Below are positions 1,494-5,504 of a stretch of DNA of 5,504 bases, in pieces. The stretch comes from Bacillus sp. (in: firmicutes) (GTDB taxonomy: Bacteria; Bacillota; Bacilli; Bacillales; Cytobacillaceae). The stretch covers positions 1 through 5,504 of the forward strand of contig DMSR01000131.1 in assembly GCA_003457145.1 (NCBI GenBank), given 5' to 3'. Position 1 is the stretch's first letter. Every line of letters begins with the position of its first letter. The notes under the pieces are model-generated. The model was not told the DNA's origin. It did not search any database and was given only the letters and a program-made list of their open reading frames with translations. A program made the translations under genes and the position numbers.

Positions 1494-2030
1494 ATGAAAT
1501 CAAAACTCCTGGCGGTTACCTTTGCAGTTGCCGTCGTGTTAGGTGCCTGCAGTGGGGGATCTGTAAAAGAAGAAACCACTTCACAAGAAAATCAAACACA
1601 AGACATTAAGAAATTGGTGAATGACTATAGTGTAAGGAACATAGAAGCTAAGTCCGCTTCCATCACATCTAACCAGCTGATTGTCACGAGCAGTGACGAA
1701 AGCGAAACAGAGTACGACTTGCCTGAAAATGAATTTTTTATTTCGATTGCACCTTACGAAAATCAAACCCATCCTTGAACGAATCATAGCTTGACAGGTT
1801 GTCAAGGTGAAATGGCAGAAAAAGAGTTTGATGTATACATTGAGGACACAGACGGAAATGTGATAATGGATGAAAAAGTGAAATCCCATGCTAATGGATT
1901 TATCGATTTTTGGCTGCCTCGTGATAAAACATATCGAACAAAAATTGAGTACGGCGGAAAAATGGCGGAGTCAGAATTATCCACGTTTGATAATGACCCG
2001 ACTTGTATTACTACAATGCAATTAATGTAA
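1494..2030 (+). CDS. cueP: CueP-family copper-binding lipoprotein, probable selenoprotein (Sec95 encoded by in-frame UGA 1776-1778)
   Basis: Read through one TGA, this is a single 178-residue protein. Residues 1-19 are a lipoprotein signal peptide with lipobox LGAC, so Cys19 is lipidated and the protein sits on the outer face of the membrane. The body matches CueP, a copper-binding protein of the cell envelope: FFISIAPYENQTH before the TGA, then HSLTGCQGE at 98-106, NGFIDFWLPRD at 134-144 and DPTCITT at 168-174. CueP of Salmonella has, as I recall, conserved Cys96, Cys104 and Cys172. Here those positions hold the TGA codon (95), Cys103 and Cys171, with identical spacings of 8 and 68. The frame stays open on both sides and the total length is normal for the family. 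GGGGGTG at 1479-1485 is a good ribosome site for the ATG at 1494. The gene has its own promoter and terminator. The family call is firm; Sec insertion is strongly suggested by the hairpin after UGA. A nonsense-mutated pseudogene is the alternative. Confidence 0.85.
1776..1808 (+). promoter_or_regulatory. Candidate bacterial SECIS element: UGA plus GGU-loop hairpin inside cueP
   Basis: The UGA codon is 1776-1778. After 11 bases starts a perfect stem: C1790 to A1796 pairs with T1800 to G1806 (core TTGACA / TGTCAA, closed by C-G), leaving the loop GGT at 1797-1799. Beyond a G-G mismatch, A1788-T1808 can pair. The loop begins 18 bases after UGA and starts with G. This fits the known bacterial SECIS rules: a small stem-loop just downstream of UGA, a G in the first two loop positions, and a distance of roughly 16-37 bases. 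E. coli fdhF, from memory, also has GGU at +19 to +21. SelB bound to the loop would deliver Sec-tRNA. No folding program was run. Confidence 0.78.
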
Positions 2031-2056
2031 AAAAGCACCTAGGCAGGTGCTTTTTT
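2031..2056 (+). terminator. Strong rho-independent terminator of cueP, bidirectional
   Basis: AAAAGCACCT (2031-2040) and AGGTGCTTTT (2045-2054) form a perfect 10-bp stem around the loop AGGC, followed by further T to 2056. It begins immediately after the cueP TAA. The A-rich left side gives a T tract on the other strand, so it probably also ends the convergent tup operon, whose last stop is at 2156. Confidence 0.9.
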
Positions 2057-2155: not shown

Positions 2156-2887
2156 TTAACTCAAAAGACTTTGCCATTCATTGATAAACGGAGCAGTTGA
2201 AGTGTTAGGGGATGATAATACTTCGGATGTTGGACCACTCTGTTTTATCTCGCCATCCATCAGGATCACAAGGGACCTTGCCAAATATTTTAATTCCATC
2301 AGGTCATGGCTGACGAATACAGTCGTCGTGTTTGTTTGCTGGATGATTGCTTTTATATCCTTCAATAGCTGCACCTTCGTGGGAAAGTCAAGAGCGGAAA
2401 AGGGTTCGTCAAGGAATAGGATTTCAGGCTCGAGCACCATTGCCCGAGCAAGGTTGACACGCTGGGCCTCCCCGCCAGATAGCTCGAAGGCGTGTGTTTT
2501 AGACAGGTGACTGATTTTGAATTTATCCAGCCAATAGGTCACCCTCGTTTTGATTTCATGACGGGAAAGCTTACGCAGCTTAAGGCCAATCGCTACATTA
2601 TGGTATACATTCATATCAAGGAGGAACGGCTGCTGCATCGCAACTGCGAACTTTCTCCTGGTCTCAATCGCCAGGTTTTTGGTGATATCTTTACCCTTTA
2701 AGATAATGGATCCTTGTGCTGGCAGCTCGAGGAGCGACAAGGCTTTGATGAACGTACTTTTACCAGCGCCGTTTGGGCCCATAATGCCGAGAACATCCCC
2801 AGCTTGAATTTGGAAATGAGGAATGGAGAGAAGCGTTCTTTTTCCAGCTGTCACCTCTAAGTTTTCAACTTTGATAAAGGGATTCAT
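2156..2887 (-). CDS. tupC: Tungstate ABC transporter, ATP-binding protein TupC
   Basis: A 243-residue ABC ATPase, the cytoplasmic motor of a tungstate importer. Motifs in order: Walker A GPNGAGKST at 37-45; Q-loop in MQQPF at 84-88; signature LSGGEAQR at 136-143; Walker B ILFLDEP at 156-162; D-loop SALD at 164-167; switch His194 in VSHD. It ends about 50 residues after the switch histidine and so lacks the C-terminal TOBE (oxyanion-sensing) domain found in ModC and WtpC, which fits the short TupC type. Its ATG overlaps the tupB stop as ATGA (2884-2887), so the two are probably translationally coupled; AAAGGAAG (+ strand 2896-2903) is the ribosome site. The substrate follows from the neighbouring tupA; by its own sequence the protein could serve other oxyanions. 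Confidence 0.88.
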   Translation of the reverse strand: MNPFIKVENLEVTAGKRTLLSIPHFQIQAGDVLGIMGPNGAGKSTFIKALSLLELPAQGSIILKGKDITKNLAIETRRKFAVAMQQPFLLDMNVYHNVAIGLKLRKLSRHEIKTRVTYWLDKFKISHLSKTHAFELSGGEAQRVNLARAMVLEPEILFLDEPFSALDFPTKVQLLKDIKAIIQQTNTTTVFVSHDLMELKYLARSLVILMDGEIKQSGPTSEVLSSPNTSTAPFINEWQSLLS

Positions 2888-3582
2888 GATTTTCGCTTCC
2901 TTTGCTGTAAATAGGTTAACAAAAATGTAATTATGAAAGCCAATGACATCAAGATGAACGAAAGGGCAAGGGCAACATCGAAGTTTCCCTTTGATACCTC
3001 CATGACAATTGAGGTTGTCAAAATCCTCGTTTCACCGCTAATATTTCCGCCGACCATCATTGCTGCGCCGACCTCGGCGATCACCCTCCCGTAGCCAGCG
3101 ATGATTGCCGCCAGGATTGCAAGCTTCACTTCTTTCATCAAAATCCAATATAACTGCAGTCGTGTCGCCCCCAAAGCTTTTACCTGCAGGACCATCTTGT
3201 TATTGATCTGCTGAAAAGCCGTGCTTGTCAACCCGGTGACAATCGGCAGGGAGACTAACACTTGAGCCATGACGATTGCAGATGGAGTATACAGCCAGGC
3301 AAAATCTCCAAGCGGACCTGAGCGCCACAGGAGCATTGTGATCCAAAGACCGGCAACAACAGGAGGGAGACCCATCCCGATATTGATGAGCGCAAGTAGC
3401 AGCCGCCGACCTGGAAACCTGGCAAGTCCAAGAAGCATACCGGCCGGAATGCCGATAAATGTGCTGATCAGGACTGCTGTCATGGAGACCTTGAGAGTCA
3501 AAAGTGTGATTTCCAAAATCTCACGGTCACCGGAAAGAATCATTTCGATCGCTTTTTTTAATCCTTCTATTAAAAGTTCCAT
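2884..3582 (-). CDS. tupB: Tungstate ABC transporter, permease TupB
   Basis: A 232-residue membrane permease with about five hydrophobic segments, at roughly residues 26-52, 61-86, 98-122, 152-178 and 203-225. The cytoplasmic EAA loop that docks the ATPase is visible at about 134-153 (VKALGATRLQLYWILMKEVK), followed by the IAEVGAAMMVGGNI stretch typical of TupB/WtpB/ModB permeases. It would form the channel receiving tungstate from TupA and pair with TupC, whose start it overlaps. The Met at 3582 keeps the usual N-terminal helix before the first membrane segment. The ribosome site before it is poor: only an A/G-rich GAAAGAAAG lies about 11 bases upstream. Met14 is a less likely alternative start. 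A gap of 141 bases separates it from tupA. Confidence 0.88.
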   Translation of the reverse strand: MELLIEGLKKAIEMILSGDREILEITLLTLKVSMTAVLISTFIGIPAGMLLGLARFPGRRLLLALINIGMGLPPVVAGLWITMLLWRSGPLGDFAWLYTPSAIVMAQVLVSLPIVTGLTSTAFQQINNKMVLQVKALGATRLQLYWILMKEVKLAILAAIIAGYGRVIAEVGAAMMVGGNISGETRILTTSIVMEVSKGNFDVALALSFILMSLAFIITFLLTYLQQRKRKS

Positions 3583-3648
3583 GGGCTATCAGGCTTTCTT
3601 TCAAGATTTTAATCGTTAGCAAAACATGCTTATCATAACATTTGCTTA

Positions 3649-3672
3649 AACCAAATCAGTAAAGCTTTGGTT
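3649..3672 (-). other. Weak intercistronic hairpin between tupA and tupB
   Basis: AACCAAA (3649-3655) and TTTGGTT (3666-3672) are perfect inverted repeats with a 10-base loop. They lie within the 141-base gap 3583-3723, the only real gap of the operon. The hairpin has no T tract, so it is not a clear terminator; it could stabilise the 3' end of the tupA message, as is common after binding-protein genes. I see no good promoter in the gap, only a CATAAT with a badly spaced TGGACA. Confidence 0.3.
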
Positions 3673-3723
3673 GATGCTCTATTTACATTATGCCGGAGAA
3701 AAACCAGTAAATGTCCAAAAACC

Positions 3724-4584
3724 TTATTTAAAAAGGAAGAAGAGAGGTTCTCCGTACTTGTCCACGCCAAAATCCTGTATTAAGGTCTGGACTTCCTCAT
3801 CAATCATAAATTCGACGAAAGCTTTAGCACCTTCTGCATTAATTTTATCATGTTTTTCATTGTTGACTTGCATCACGTGATAAATATTGAGAAGGCTCTC
3901 ATCACCTTCTACCAAAATGGCTGAATCTTTCAGATTCTGCTTTTGGGCAAGAAAGGTAGAGCGGTCGGTCAGTGTATATCCTCTTTTCTCTGAAGCAATT
4001 TGCAGAGTGGCACCCATTCCTTGGCCCGTTTCGAGATATTGATCCAGCTTTGATGGATCGATTGAAGACTTTTTCCAAAGCTCAAGTTCTTTTTTATGTG
4101 TACCGGAATCGTCTCCTCTTGAAACGAATATACCTTTTGATTCGAATATTTGTTCCAGAGCTTCTTGTACTTCAAACCCATTGATGTTTGCTGGATCTTC
4201 AACAGGTCCAATCAGGATGAAATCATTGTACATAACCCGGTGGCGGTTGATTGCATCCCCGCTGTCGACAATTTTCTGTTCGGCTTCAGGAGCATGTACG
4301 AGCAACACATCCGCTTCACCTCGCGATCCCATTTCCAGTGCCTGCCCAGTGCCTACTGCAATTGTTTTAACATTGTAATTATGATTCTTTTCAAATTCAG
4401 GCACCAGGACATCGAGCAAGCCGCTATCCTGTGTACTTGTTGTCGTTGCCAGTATTAAATCAGTACGTTCTGGTGAAGTCCCGCCAGTTTTATCAGCAAT
4501 AACTTTTGGGGAGGAGTCAGAACATCCAGCTATAAAAGCAAAAATAAAGATTAGTGCAGTTAGGAATAATTTGTTTGATCTCAT
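3724..4584 (-). CDS. tupA: Tungstate-binding lipoprotein TupA
   Basis: A 286-residue substrate-binding lipoprotein. Residues 1-21 are a signal peptide with lipobox IAGC, so Cys21 anchors it on the outer membrane face. The mature part carries the TupA hallmarks: ATTTSTQDSGLL starting at 46, including the TTTS oxyanion-binding motif (47-50); VGTGQALEMG at 77-86; GEADVLLVHAP at 89-99; SRGDDSGTH at 155-163; and GQGMG at 187-191. In characterised TupA proteins the TTTS region and the SRGDDSGTH segment surround tungstate with high selectivity over molybdate. The protein hands the anion to TupB/TupC. Its ATG overlaps the regulator's TGA (4581-4584), and a perfect GGAGGT (+ strand 4591-4596) sits six bases before the start. 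Family is firm; tungstate rather than molybdate is inferred from the motif set. Confidence 0.93.
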   Translation of the reverse strand: MRSNKLFLTALIFIFAFIAGCSDSSPKVIADKTGGTSPERTDLILATTTSTQDSGLLDVLVPEFEKNHNYNVKTIAVGTGQALEMGSRGEADVLLVHAPEAEQKIVDSGDAINRHRVMYNDFILIGPVEDPANINGFEVQEALEQIFESKGIFVSRGDDSGTHKKELELWKKSSIDPSKLDQYLETGQGMGATLQIASEKRGYTLTDRSTFLAQKQNLKDSAILVEGDESLLNIYHVMQVNNEKHDKINAEGAKAFVEFMIDEEVQTLIQDFGVDKYGEPLFFLFK

Positions 4585-5504
4585 TTTTTTACCTCCGTGA
4601 AATGGGTGCCATAAATGATTTTCCCGAAGTCTGTGGCATCATATCCAGCAAGCTTGATTATGCTGTCTTTAAAATTAGTAAAATGGACAAGGTCGAGTAA
4701 ATGCTGCAATGTACCTTTGTTTTCAGGTGTCCAGCGGAAAACAAGGTCAAACTGTTCCTGTGCTAAAGGGATAAAATCCAGTCCAAGCTGGCTGGCTGCG
4801 CACCGGATGCCGAAAGCTGCGTCAGCAGTGCCTCTGCTTACATGGGCTGCAGCGCCAAGGTGGTTCCATTCTTCATCGTCATAGCCCTTCACATCTGCTG
4901 GCAGCAAGCTTTCATCCGCAAGGAAGGAGTCGAGTAGGAAGCGGGTTCCCGCACCTTTTTGTCGATTGACAATTTGAACATCATTCCTTGTCAGGTCTTT
5001 GACTGAATTAATGTTTTTTGGATTGCCCTTTGCCACAATCAATCCCTGTTCCCTAGAAGCCAGCCTCATGACCGTTATCGGCTCATGGACAAACAGCTGA
5101 CGGATAAAGGGAAGATTATATTGCTGTGACACCGGATCGAGCAGGTGGATGGCCGCTATGTCTGCGCTTCCACGGTAAAGCATCATCAGTCCTTCGAGGC
5201 TTCCTATATACGAAGGCGTGATTGACAGGCCTGTTTCTTGGGAGGCTGTATATTTCACAAGATGCTCGACAAGGAAATCATGGCTTCCTGCTAATTTAAG
5301 TGATTGCTGTGAATGATTCTGTGTTTCTGTCTGCCGCTTGCCAGGTAATGCCGCCATGCTTTCTTTAAATCTGGCGAACTCGCTTTCTTCAATTCGCATT
5401 TTATTGCCTACTTTAAAAGCGGCCAGGTCACCCCGCTTGATCATTTCGTAAACGGTATGTTTAGAGATTTTTAGCATTGAAGCGATTTCATCAGGAGTAT
5501 AGAG
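4581..5504 (-). CDS. HTH regulator with C-terminal PBP-like oxyanion-sensing domain (5' end outside window)
   Basis: The frame stays open from the TGA at 4583-4581 to the right edge, 308 codons. The Met at 5477 is not the start: the nine codons before it read LYTPDEIAS, which is the first part of an excisionase-type helix-turn-helix, continuing MLKISKHTVYEMIKRGDL and FKVGNKMRI. Probably only a few residues are missing. After a linker rich in Gln and Lys comes a periplasmic-binding-protein-like domain. Counted from the Met at 5477 it shows GSHD at 64-67, SYIGSLEGL at 89-97, IHLLD at 110-114, NRQKGAGTR at 171-179 and SRGTADAAFGIR at 214-225. There is no signal peptide, so it is cytoplasmic. Proteins of this architecture occur beside molybdate and tungstate importers and are taken to sense the anion. 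Because it overlaps tupA by ATGA, it is co-transcribed with tupABC and probably autoregulates them. The operator and promoter lie outside the window. Confidence 0.85.
   Translation of the reverse strand, partial: LYTPDEIASMLKISKHTVYEMIKRGDLAAFKVGNKMRIEESEFARFKESMAALPGKRQTETQNHSQQSLKLAGSHDFLVEHLVKYTASQETGLSITPSYIGSLEGLMMLYRGSADIAAIHLLDPVSQQYNLPFIRQLFVHEPITVMRLASREQGLIVAKGNPKNINSVKDLTRNDVQIVNRQKGAGTRFLLDSFLADESLLPADVKGYDDEEWNHLGAAAHVSRGTADAAFGIRCAASQLGLDFIPLAQEQFDLVFRWTPENKGTLQHLLDLVHFTNFKDSIIKLAGYDATDFGKIIYGTHFTEVKK
4591..4596 (-). promoter_or_regulatory. Strong ribosome binding site of tupA
   Basis: GGAGGT on the - strand lies six bases before the tupA ATG and inside the end of the regulator gene. 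It allows much stronger translation of the binding protein than of tupB, which has a weak site. This fits the usual excess of binding protein over permease. Confidence 0.75.

Follow-up and report, generated by a model that had tools for sequence, protein, structure and literature searches.

Conserved in-frame UGA codon and SECIS-like hairpin in cueP genes of Bacillus relatives indicate a probable selenocysteine-containing copper protein

A cueP gene split by a single TGA

Is a TGA triplet that separates two open reading frames of a Bacillus genome a stop codon, or does it encode selenocysteine (Sec) in a single copper protein? The question is raised by a 5,504-nucleotide stretch of a Bacillus sp. 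assembly (GCA_003457145.1, contig DMSR01000131.1), which is called here the window. The ORFs 1494-1778 and 1791-2030 of the forward strand lie in one frame and are split by the TGA at 1776-1778; the standard code reads such a Sec-type cueP as two pieces. Read through the TGA, the joined ORFs (1494-2030, stop codon TAA at 2028-2030) give a product of 178 residues with U at position 95. An earlier note on this DNA had claimed a common frame and a full-length CueP of 178 residues, and both claims were confirmed by the ORF list, the translation and the family matches given below; its five sense codons between the TGA and position 1791 are, when counted, four.

The sequence GGGGGTG at 1479-1485 is, judged by eye, the probable ribosome-binding site of cueP. 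The Cys19 codon (1548-1550) stands in a lipobox-like LGAC, a predicted lipoprotein anchor, and this N-terminus suggests a surface lipoprotein. Behind the gene, AGCACCT-AGGC-AGGTGCT followed by a T run (2034-2056, forward strand) was picked by eye as a candidate terminator; the scan of positions 1200-2200 listed no terminator, there or elsewhere, and of its four promoter-like sites none lies ahead of cueP on the cueP strand.

With C written for U, the protein matched the Pfam family CueP, PF21172 (E 9.6e-45, 152.1 bits against a cut-off of 27), and NCBIfam NF038094 (193.7 bits, cut-off 60). The Salmonella-type model NF038095 gave 148.4 bits, under its cut-off of 195, and the protein was not assigned to this narrower type. 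Salmonella CueP (4GQZ) was the sole PDB sequence match at E up to 0.001 (E 5.5e-31). In this alignment the TGA falls on the Cys of THPC and the two later conserved cysteines are present, encoded at 1800-1802 (Cys103) and 2004-2006 (Cys171), in line with the earlier placement of the TGA at codon 95, on the first conserved Cys of the family, and of the other two. When the window protein and 11 homologues were aligned with TGA written as C, positions 95, 103 and 171 were invariant Cys. The AlphaFold model (C for U, pLDDT 79.5) predicts the CueP fold, with 4GQZ as the best PDB match (E 1.4e-14; TM 0.82 by target length, 0.72 by query length). The cysteines of the Salmonella protein, which we take to be numbered Cys96, Cys104 and Cys172, agree in the 4GQZ alignment with Sec95, Cys103 and Cys171 as their counterparts. 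Thus family, predicted fold and the three aligned positions are common to the two proteins, whereas the first position is UGA in the window gene and Cys in Salmonella CueP, and the window protein is a predicted lipoprotein (LGAC, by eye) while the Salmonella protein is free in the periplasm.

The UGA codon recurs in related cueP genes

The codon at the homologous position was read in the listed CueP copies that reach the site. In the near set (the window's own genome and 60 related ones) CueP was found in 32 of 61 genomes, and in a sample of the order in 88 of 397, where up to eight candidates per genome were scored and the copy numbers are therefore minimum values. The union of both sets contains 103 genomes with CueP and 109 scored copies, of which 58 have TGA, 50 TGT or TGC and one TAC. 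A scan of named genomes with a single sequence yielded two loci only, in Mesobacillus zeae and Neobacillus niacini, and both carry TGA. The total is 60 UGA codons among the 110 copies with UGA or Cys at the site (103 genomes plus the two species); TAA or TAG stood at this site in none of 111 copies. The 58 UGA copies are spread over 56 genomes, besides the two named species, and the UGA genomes belong by hand count to 21 genus codes and 13 family codes. The search for other homologues with UGA at the Cys position, which the earlier note had proposed, was therefore positive, at the very same codon. The UGA copies of the near set are 56-67% identical to the window protein (26 relatives with a copy in one piece).

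The TAC codon belongs to the second copy of genome G194 (G194b, L122), which has TGA at the second Cys codon and also a TAG, in a genome negative for SelA; since it was taken as a pseudogene, it was left out of the Sec/Cys counts. Two genomes carry two Sec-type copies each (G064, L066/L076; G190, L094/L109), and G068 has one Sec and one Cys copy (L068/L117).

In a phylum sample CueP was found in 9 of 398 genomes, with TGA in the two whose codon was read, both already known. CueP relatives also occurred in 23 plasmid records, all below 60% identity. Among the 120 listed of 734 database CueP matches, 112 have Cys at the site, eight have Trp and none has U. The Trp entries (P0006, P0011, P0025, P0058, P0066, P0078, P0106, P0116) are probably UGA genes predicted with a code in which UGA means Trp.

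A protein tree was calculated from 107 rows, after four partial copies had been removed and the trait residue masked. It counts at least 14 changes between Sec and Cys; since the well-supported branches force only two of them, repeated switching between the two forms is likely, but not proven.

A SECIS-like hairpin stands behind the UGA

An element that the earlier note did not contain was found immediately downstream. In every UGA copy an inverted repeat of 17 bases with the loop AGGUU starts 11 bases 3' of the UGA; in the window this predicted SECIS-like hairpin, CUUGAC-AGGUU-GUCAAG, occupies 1790-1806 of the forward strand behind a spacer at 1779-1789, and the codon of Cys103 lies inside it. 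All six pairs (G-U allowed) can form in 60 of 60 UGA copies and in 6 of 50 Cys copies, and the loop AGGUU is present in 60 of 60 and 9 of 50, respectively. Among Cys copies from SelA-positive genomes, 1 of 17 is paired. Third-base positions that are fixed in the UGA copies are variable in the Cys copies, as in the Gly and Thr codons round the loop. When synonymous codons were redrawn in 2000 rounds, an average of 1.58 of the 60 copies had both stem and loop, with a maximum of seven.

Covariation was evaluated on the 39 distinct 36-nt rows obtained from 59 copies, with 500 shuffles for comparison. All 234 of 234 cells were paired, and two of the pairs had changed on both sides, from U-A to C-G in eight rows and from A-U to G-C in one row. 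The number of paired cells, the number of both-sided cells and the covariation score were reached by none of the 500 shuffles; the number of pairs with a both-sided change was equalled by 13 of them, and that of further pair types by all 500. Versions of the element slid along the alignment scored lower in paired cells, both-sided changes and covariation. Three of the six pairs are invariant and, since they never vary, say nothing on covariation. The 23-nt core (1787-1809) folds with -7.8 kcal/mol (z -3.39), a value matched by 0 of 200 shuffles; when 45 nt are folded the gain is modest (z -1.29, 18 of 200 shuffles as good). An Rfam search of the window gave no match with an E of 1 or lower.

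Section 5 of a recent review gives the constraints of bacterial SECIS elements as a loop of 3-9 nt with a G in the first two places, a stem of 4-16 bp, 16-37 nt to the loop and an MFE of -7.5 or lower (PMC13188914). The predicted element, with its 6-bp stem, AGGUU loop, 17 nt from UGA to loop and -7.8 kcal/mol, lies within all of these, and the combination seen in cueP, in which such a hairpin stands behind an in-frame UGA that replaces a Cys codon, is the one described there for catalogued prokaryotic selenoproteins. The selenocysteine signal of E. coli fdhF has the same 11-nt spacer and 17-nt stem-loop as cueP, whereas its loop is AGGUCU instead of AGGUU, its stem sequence is another one and it has extra pairing in the lower stem.

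One SelA-negative genome (G366, L061) has TGC at the site and has kept the full element CTTGACAGGTTGTCAAG. Such a fossil SECIS would be the expected trace of a switch from Sec to Cys after the loss of Sec decoding, although this is one case and recombination may be another origin of the element.

Selenocysteine machinery in the genomes with UGA

SelA was called by a TIGR00474 match with E below 1e-100 and is present in every one of the 56 genomes that carry a UGA copy; the 47 genomes without one are divided into 31 SelA-negative and 16 SelA-positive. The association has a Fisher p of 8e-15, in which kinship is ignored; when kinship was taken into account on the protein tree, the supported independent pairs that contrast SelA numbered only two. 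In the order sample alone SelA was found in 42 of 42 UGA genomes, the others being 30 negative and 16 positive. Since the 16 SelA-positive genomes carry Cys copies only, the presence of the Sec machinery alone does not predict Sec in CueP.

In the near set both SelB and tRNA-Sec were over the cut-off in 27 of 28 UGA genomes, the exception being the window's own assembly, which is 67% complete and consists of 556 contigs. Both were likewise over the cut-off in Mesobacillus zeae and in Neobacillus niacini. All 20 of the 20 same-genus genomes searched had selA, selB and tRNA-Sec over the cut-off; some of these matches were flawed, with in-frame stops in selA and selB of G004 and a split selA in G015. 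On contig C204 of the window's own assembly selA adjoins selD, and this selA is broken by NN assembly gaps where the frame changes. Thus, of the four genes that the earlier note had suggested to look for, selA and selD (the latter searched in this assembly only) were found, while selB and tRNA-Sec (selC) had no match over the cut-off in the 67% complete assembly, though they are present in the 20 same-genus genomes. The selD gene on C204 has an in-frame UGA of its own (L135 8047-8049, reverse strand) within GUGCKISP and is itself a predicted selenoprotein gene; Table 1 of PMC13188914 lists the motif UxxK for SelD, and GUGCKISP fits it.

Readings of the UGA codon

We conclude that cueP (1494-2030) is very probably translated as a selenoprotein with Sec at residue 95 of the predicted copper site, because the UGA replaces a conserved Cys codon and a conserved predicted SECIS-like hairpin stands right behind it. 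The interpretation of the UGA as Sec in the earlier note is thereby strengthened: the recurrence of the codon, the machinery, the absence of decay and the hairpin all support it.

Of the other explanations the one that survives best, though we regard it as very improbable, takes the palindrome CTTGAC-N5-GTCAAG for an operator in the DNA or for an RNA signal of another kind, with the UGA suppressed in an ordinary manner to give Trp or Cys. The paired changes are indeed as compatible with a conserved palindrome in DNA as with a stem in RNA, and Trp stands at the site in 8 of the 120 listed database proteins, most likely through gene calling with UGA as Trp. Against this explanation, however, the distance between the repeat and the UGA is constant, the repeat is lost in most Cys copies even in SelA-positive genomes, the asymmetric AGGUU loop is invariant in the UGA copies, these copies are confined to SelA-positive genomes, and the cueP gene of G009 also uses UGA as its terminal stop.

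A nonsense mutation, an assembly error or a decaying gene, which would make the UGA a genuine stop and leave a dead or truncated product of 94 residues, is harder still to believe. This explanation agrees with the two separate ORFs that the standard code gives, and a few UGA copies have other frame breaks, located upstream of the UGA in G165 and G384. G004 is frameshifted, but the other 59 of the 60 copies have 60 clean sense codons after the UGA, and the median pairwise dN/dS of this region is 0.16 (58 copies, without G004 and without G241, which lies at a contig edge; 778 pairs passed the divergence limits, and the highest value was 0.98), compared to 0.13 in the 20 codons before the UGA (765 pairs). 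These values indicate purifying selection on the part of the gene downstream of the UGA, and the scattered decay among close relatives that the earlier note had named as evidence against its proposal was not seen. With the UGA in 60 of 110 copies, neither error nor decay accounts for it; the same codon persists at the 56-67% identity of the near set, with TAA and TAG absent from the site and a pseudogene of a SelA-negative genome as the sole TAC copy. This conservation refutes a true stop or decay as a general account. Termination at the UGA followed by a restart at TTG 1791 or a later codon, giving two polypeptides, is equally hard to credit. In its favour, the TTG past the four-codon gap is listed as an ORF start. 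This codon is, however, CTG in 10 of 59 UGA copies and changes jointly with its pairing partner, and the second polypeptide, having no signal peptide, would not arrive at the copper site.

Proposed function of a Sec-containing CueP

Given translation of the UGA as Sec, the following course of events can be proposed. SelB with GTP and Sec-tRNA would bind the mRNA hairpin at 1790-1806 and insert Sec at the UGA, which lies 11 bases upstream of it. After export of the 178-residue product, a lipid anchor at Cys19 would keep it on the external side of the membrane. Within the CueP fold, Sec95, Cys103 and Cys171 would make up the cluster for copper binding and redox chemistry. Sec in place of the first Cys would bring a lower pKa, stronger binding of Cu(I) and quicker redox cycling. 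Sec95 could thus be a stronger copper(I) ligand than Cys and a faster reductant of copper(II) or peroxide, and a selenenylsulfide of Sec95 with Cys103 or Cys171 is a possible resting form.

The copper binding and the chemistry ascribed to Sec95 are inferred in part from passages on the Salmonella protein. According to these, Salmonella CueP is a periplasmic copper-binding protein with a cluster of conserved Cys and His on its C-terminal domain; it aids the metallation of SodC, and replacement of Cys104 abolishes its effect on copper resistance (PMC7558416, PMC8264917, PMC13201067). A Cu2+ reductase activity has also been proposed for CueP (PMC8966772).

CueP is absent from Table 1 (119 families or subfamilies) of the May 2026 review (PMC13188914), and a full-text search of open-licence PMC papers, with preprints and U-annotated sequence records outside its scope, returned no report of CueP with selenocysteine or as a selenoprotein. 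The use of selenium in copper handling has some precedent, the copper-related entries of the same Table 1 being CopZ-type 2Fe-2S proteins and an SO_0444 Cu/Zn efflux transporter. With moderate confidence we propose that Sec-CueP is an uncatalogued selenoprotein family, spread over 21 or more genus codes within one order of Bacillus relatives, and that it is a surface lipoprotein whose selenium would serve directly as a copper ligand. It would be exchanged with the Cys form as lineages keep or lose Sec decoding, and at least one genome that lacks selA has retained an intact fossil SECIS downstream of a Cys codon.

If this is true, a copper metallochaperone is added to the known selenoproteins, in relatives of Bacillus. 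Since this small protein occurs in nature with Sec as well as with Cys, and in both forms in G068, the benefit of selenium to a copper-binding protein becomes directly testable. Sec-CueP may also explain in part why these bacteria retain selenocysteine decoding.

Gene neighbourhood

No conserved partner gene was found in 20 stretches of 16.5 kb round UGA copies together with the window. Besides the two pieces of cueP itself, the most widespread neighbour protein cluster, an ABC transporter by its look, occurs at scattered places in 9 of the 21 stretches. In the window itself, 2156-4584 on the reverse strand encodes an ABC transporter of the tungstate/molybdate type, the permease of which scored over the cut-off of NF038017, while the TupA-like and TupB-like genes scored below those NCBIfam cut-offs. 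Uptake of tungstate or molybdate would suit Sec-type formate dehydrogenases. The adjoining gene at 4581-5477 (reverse strand) encodes a protein with a helix-turn-helix and a periplasmic-binding-like domain (PF12728 and PF12727), which is perhaps the regulator of this transporter.
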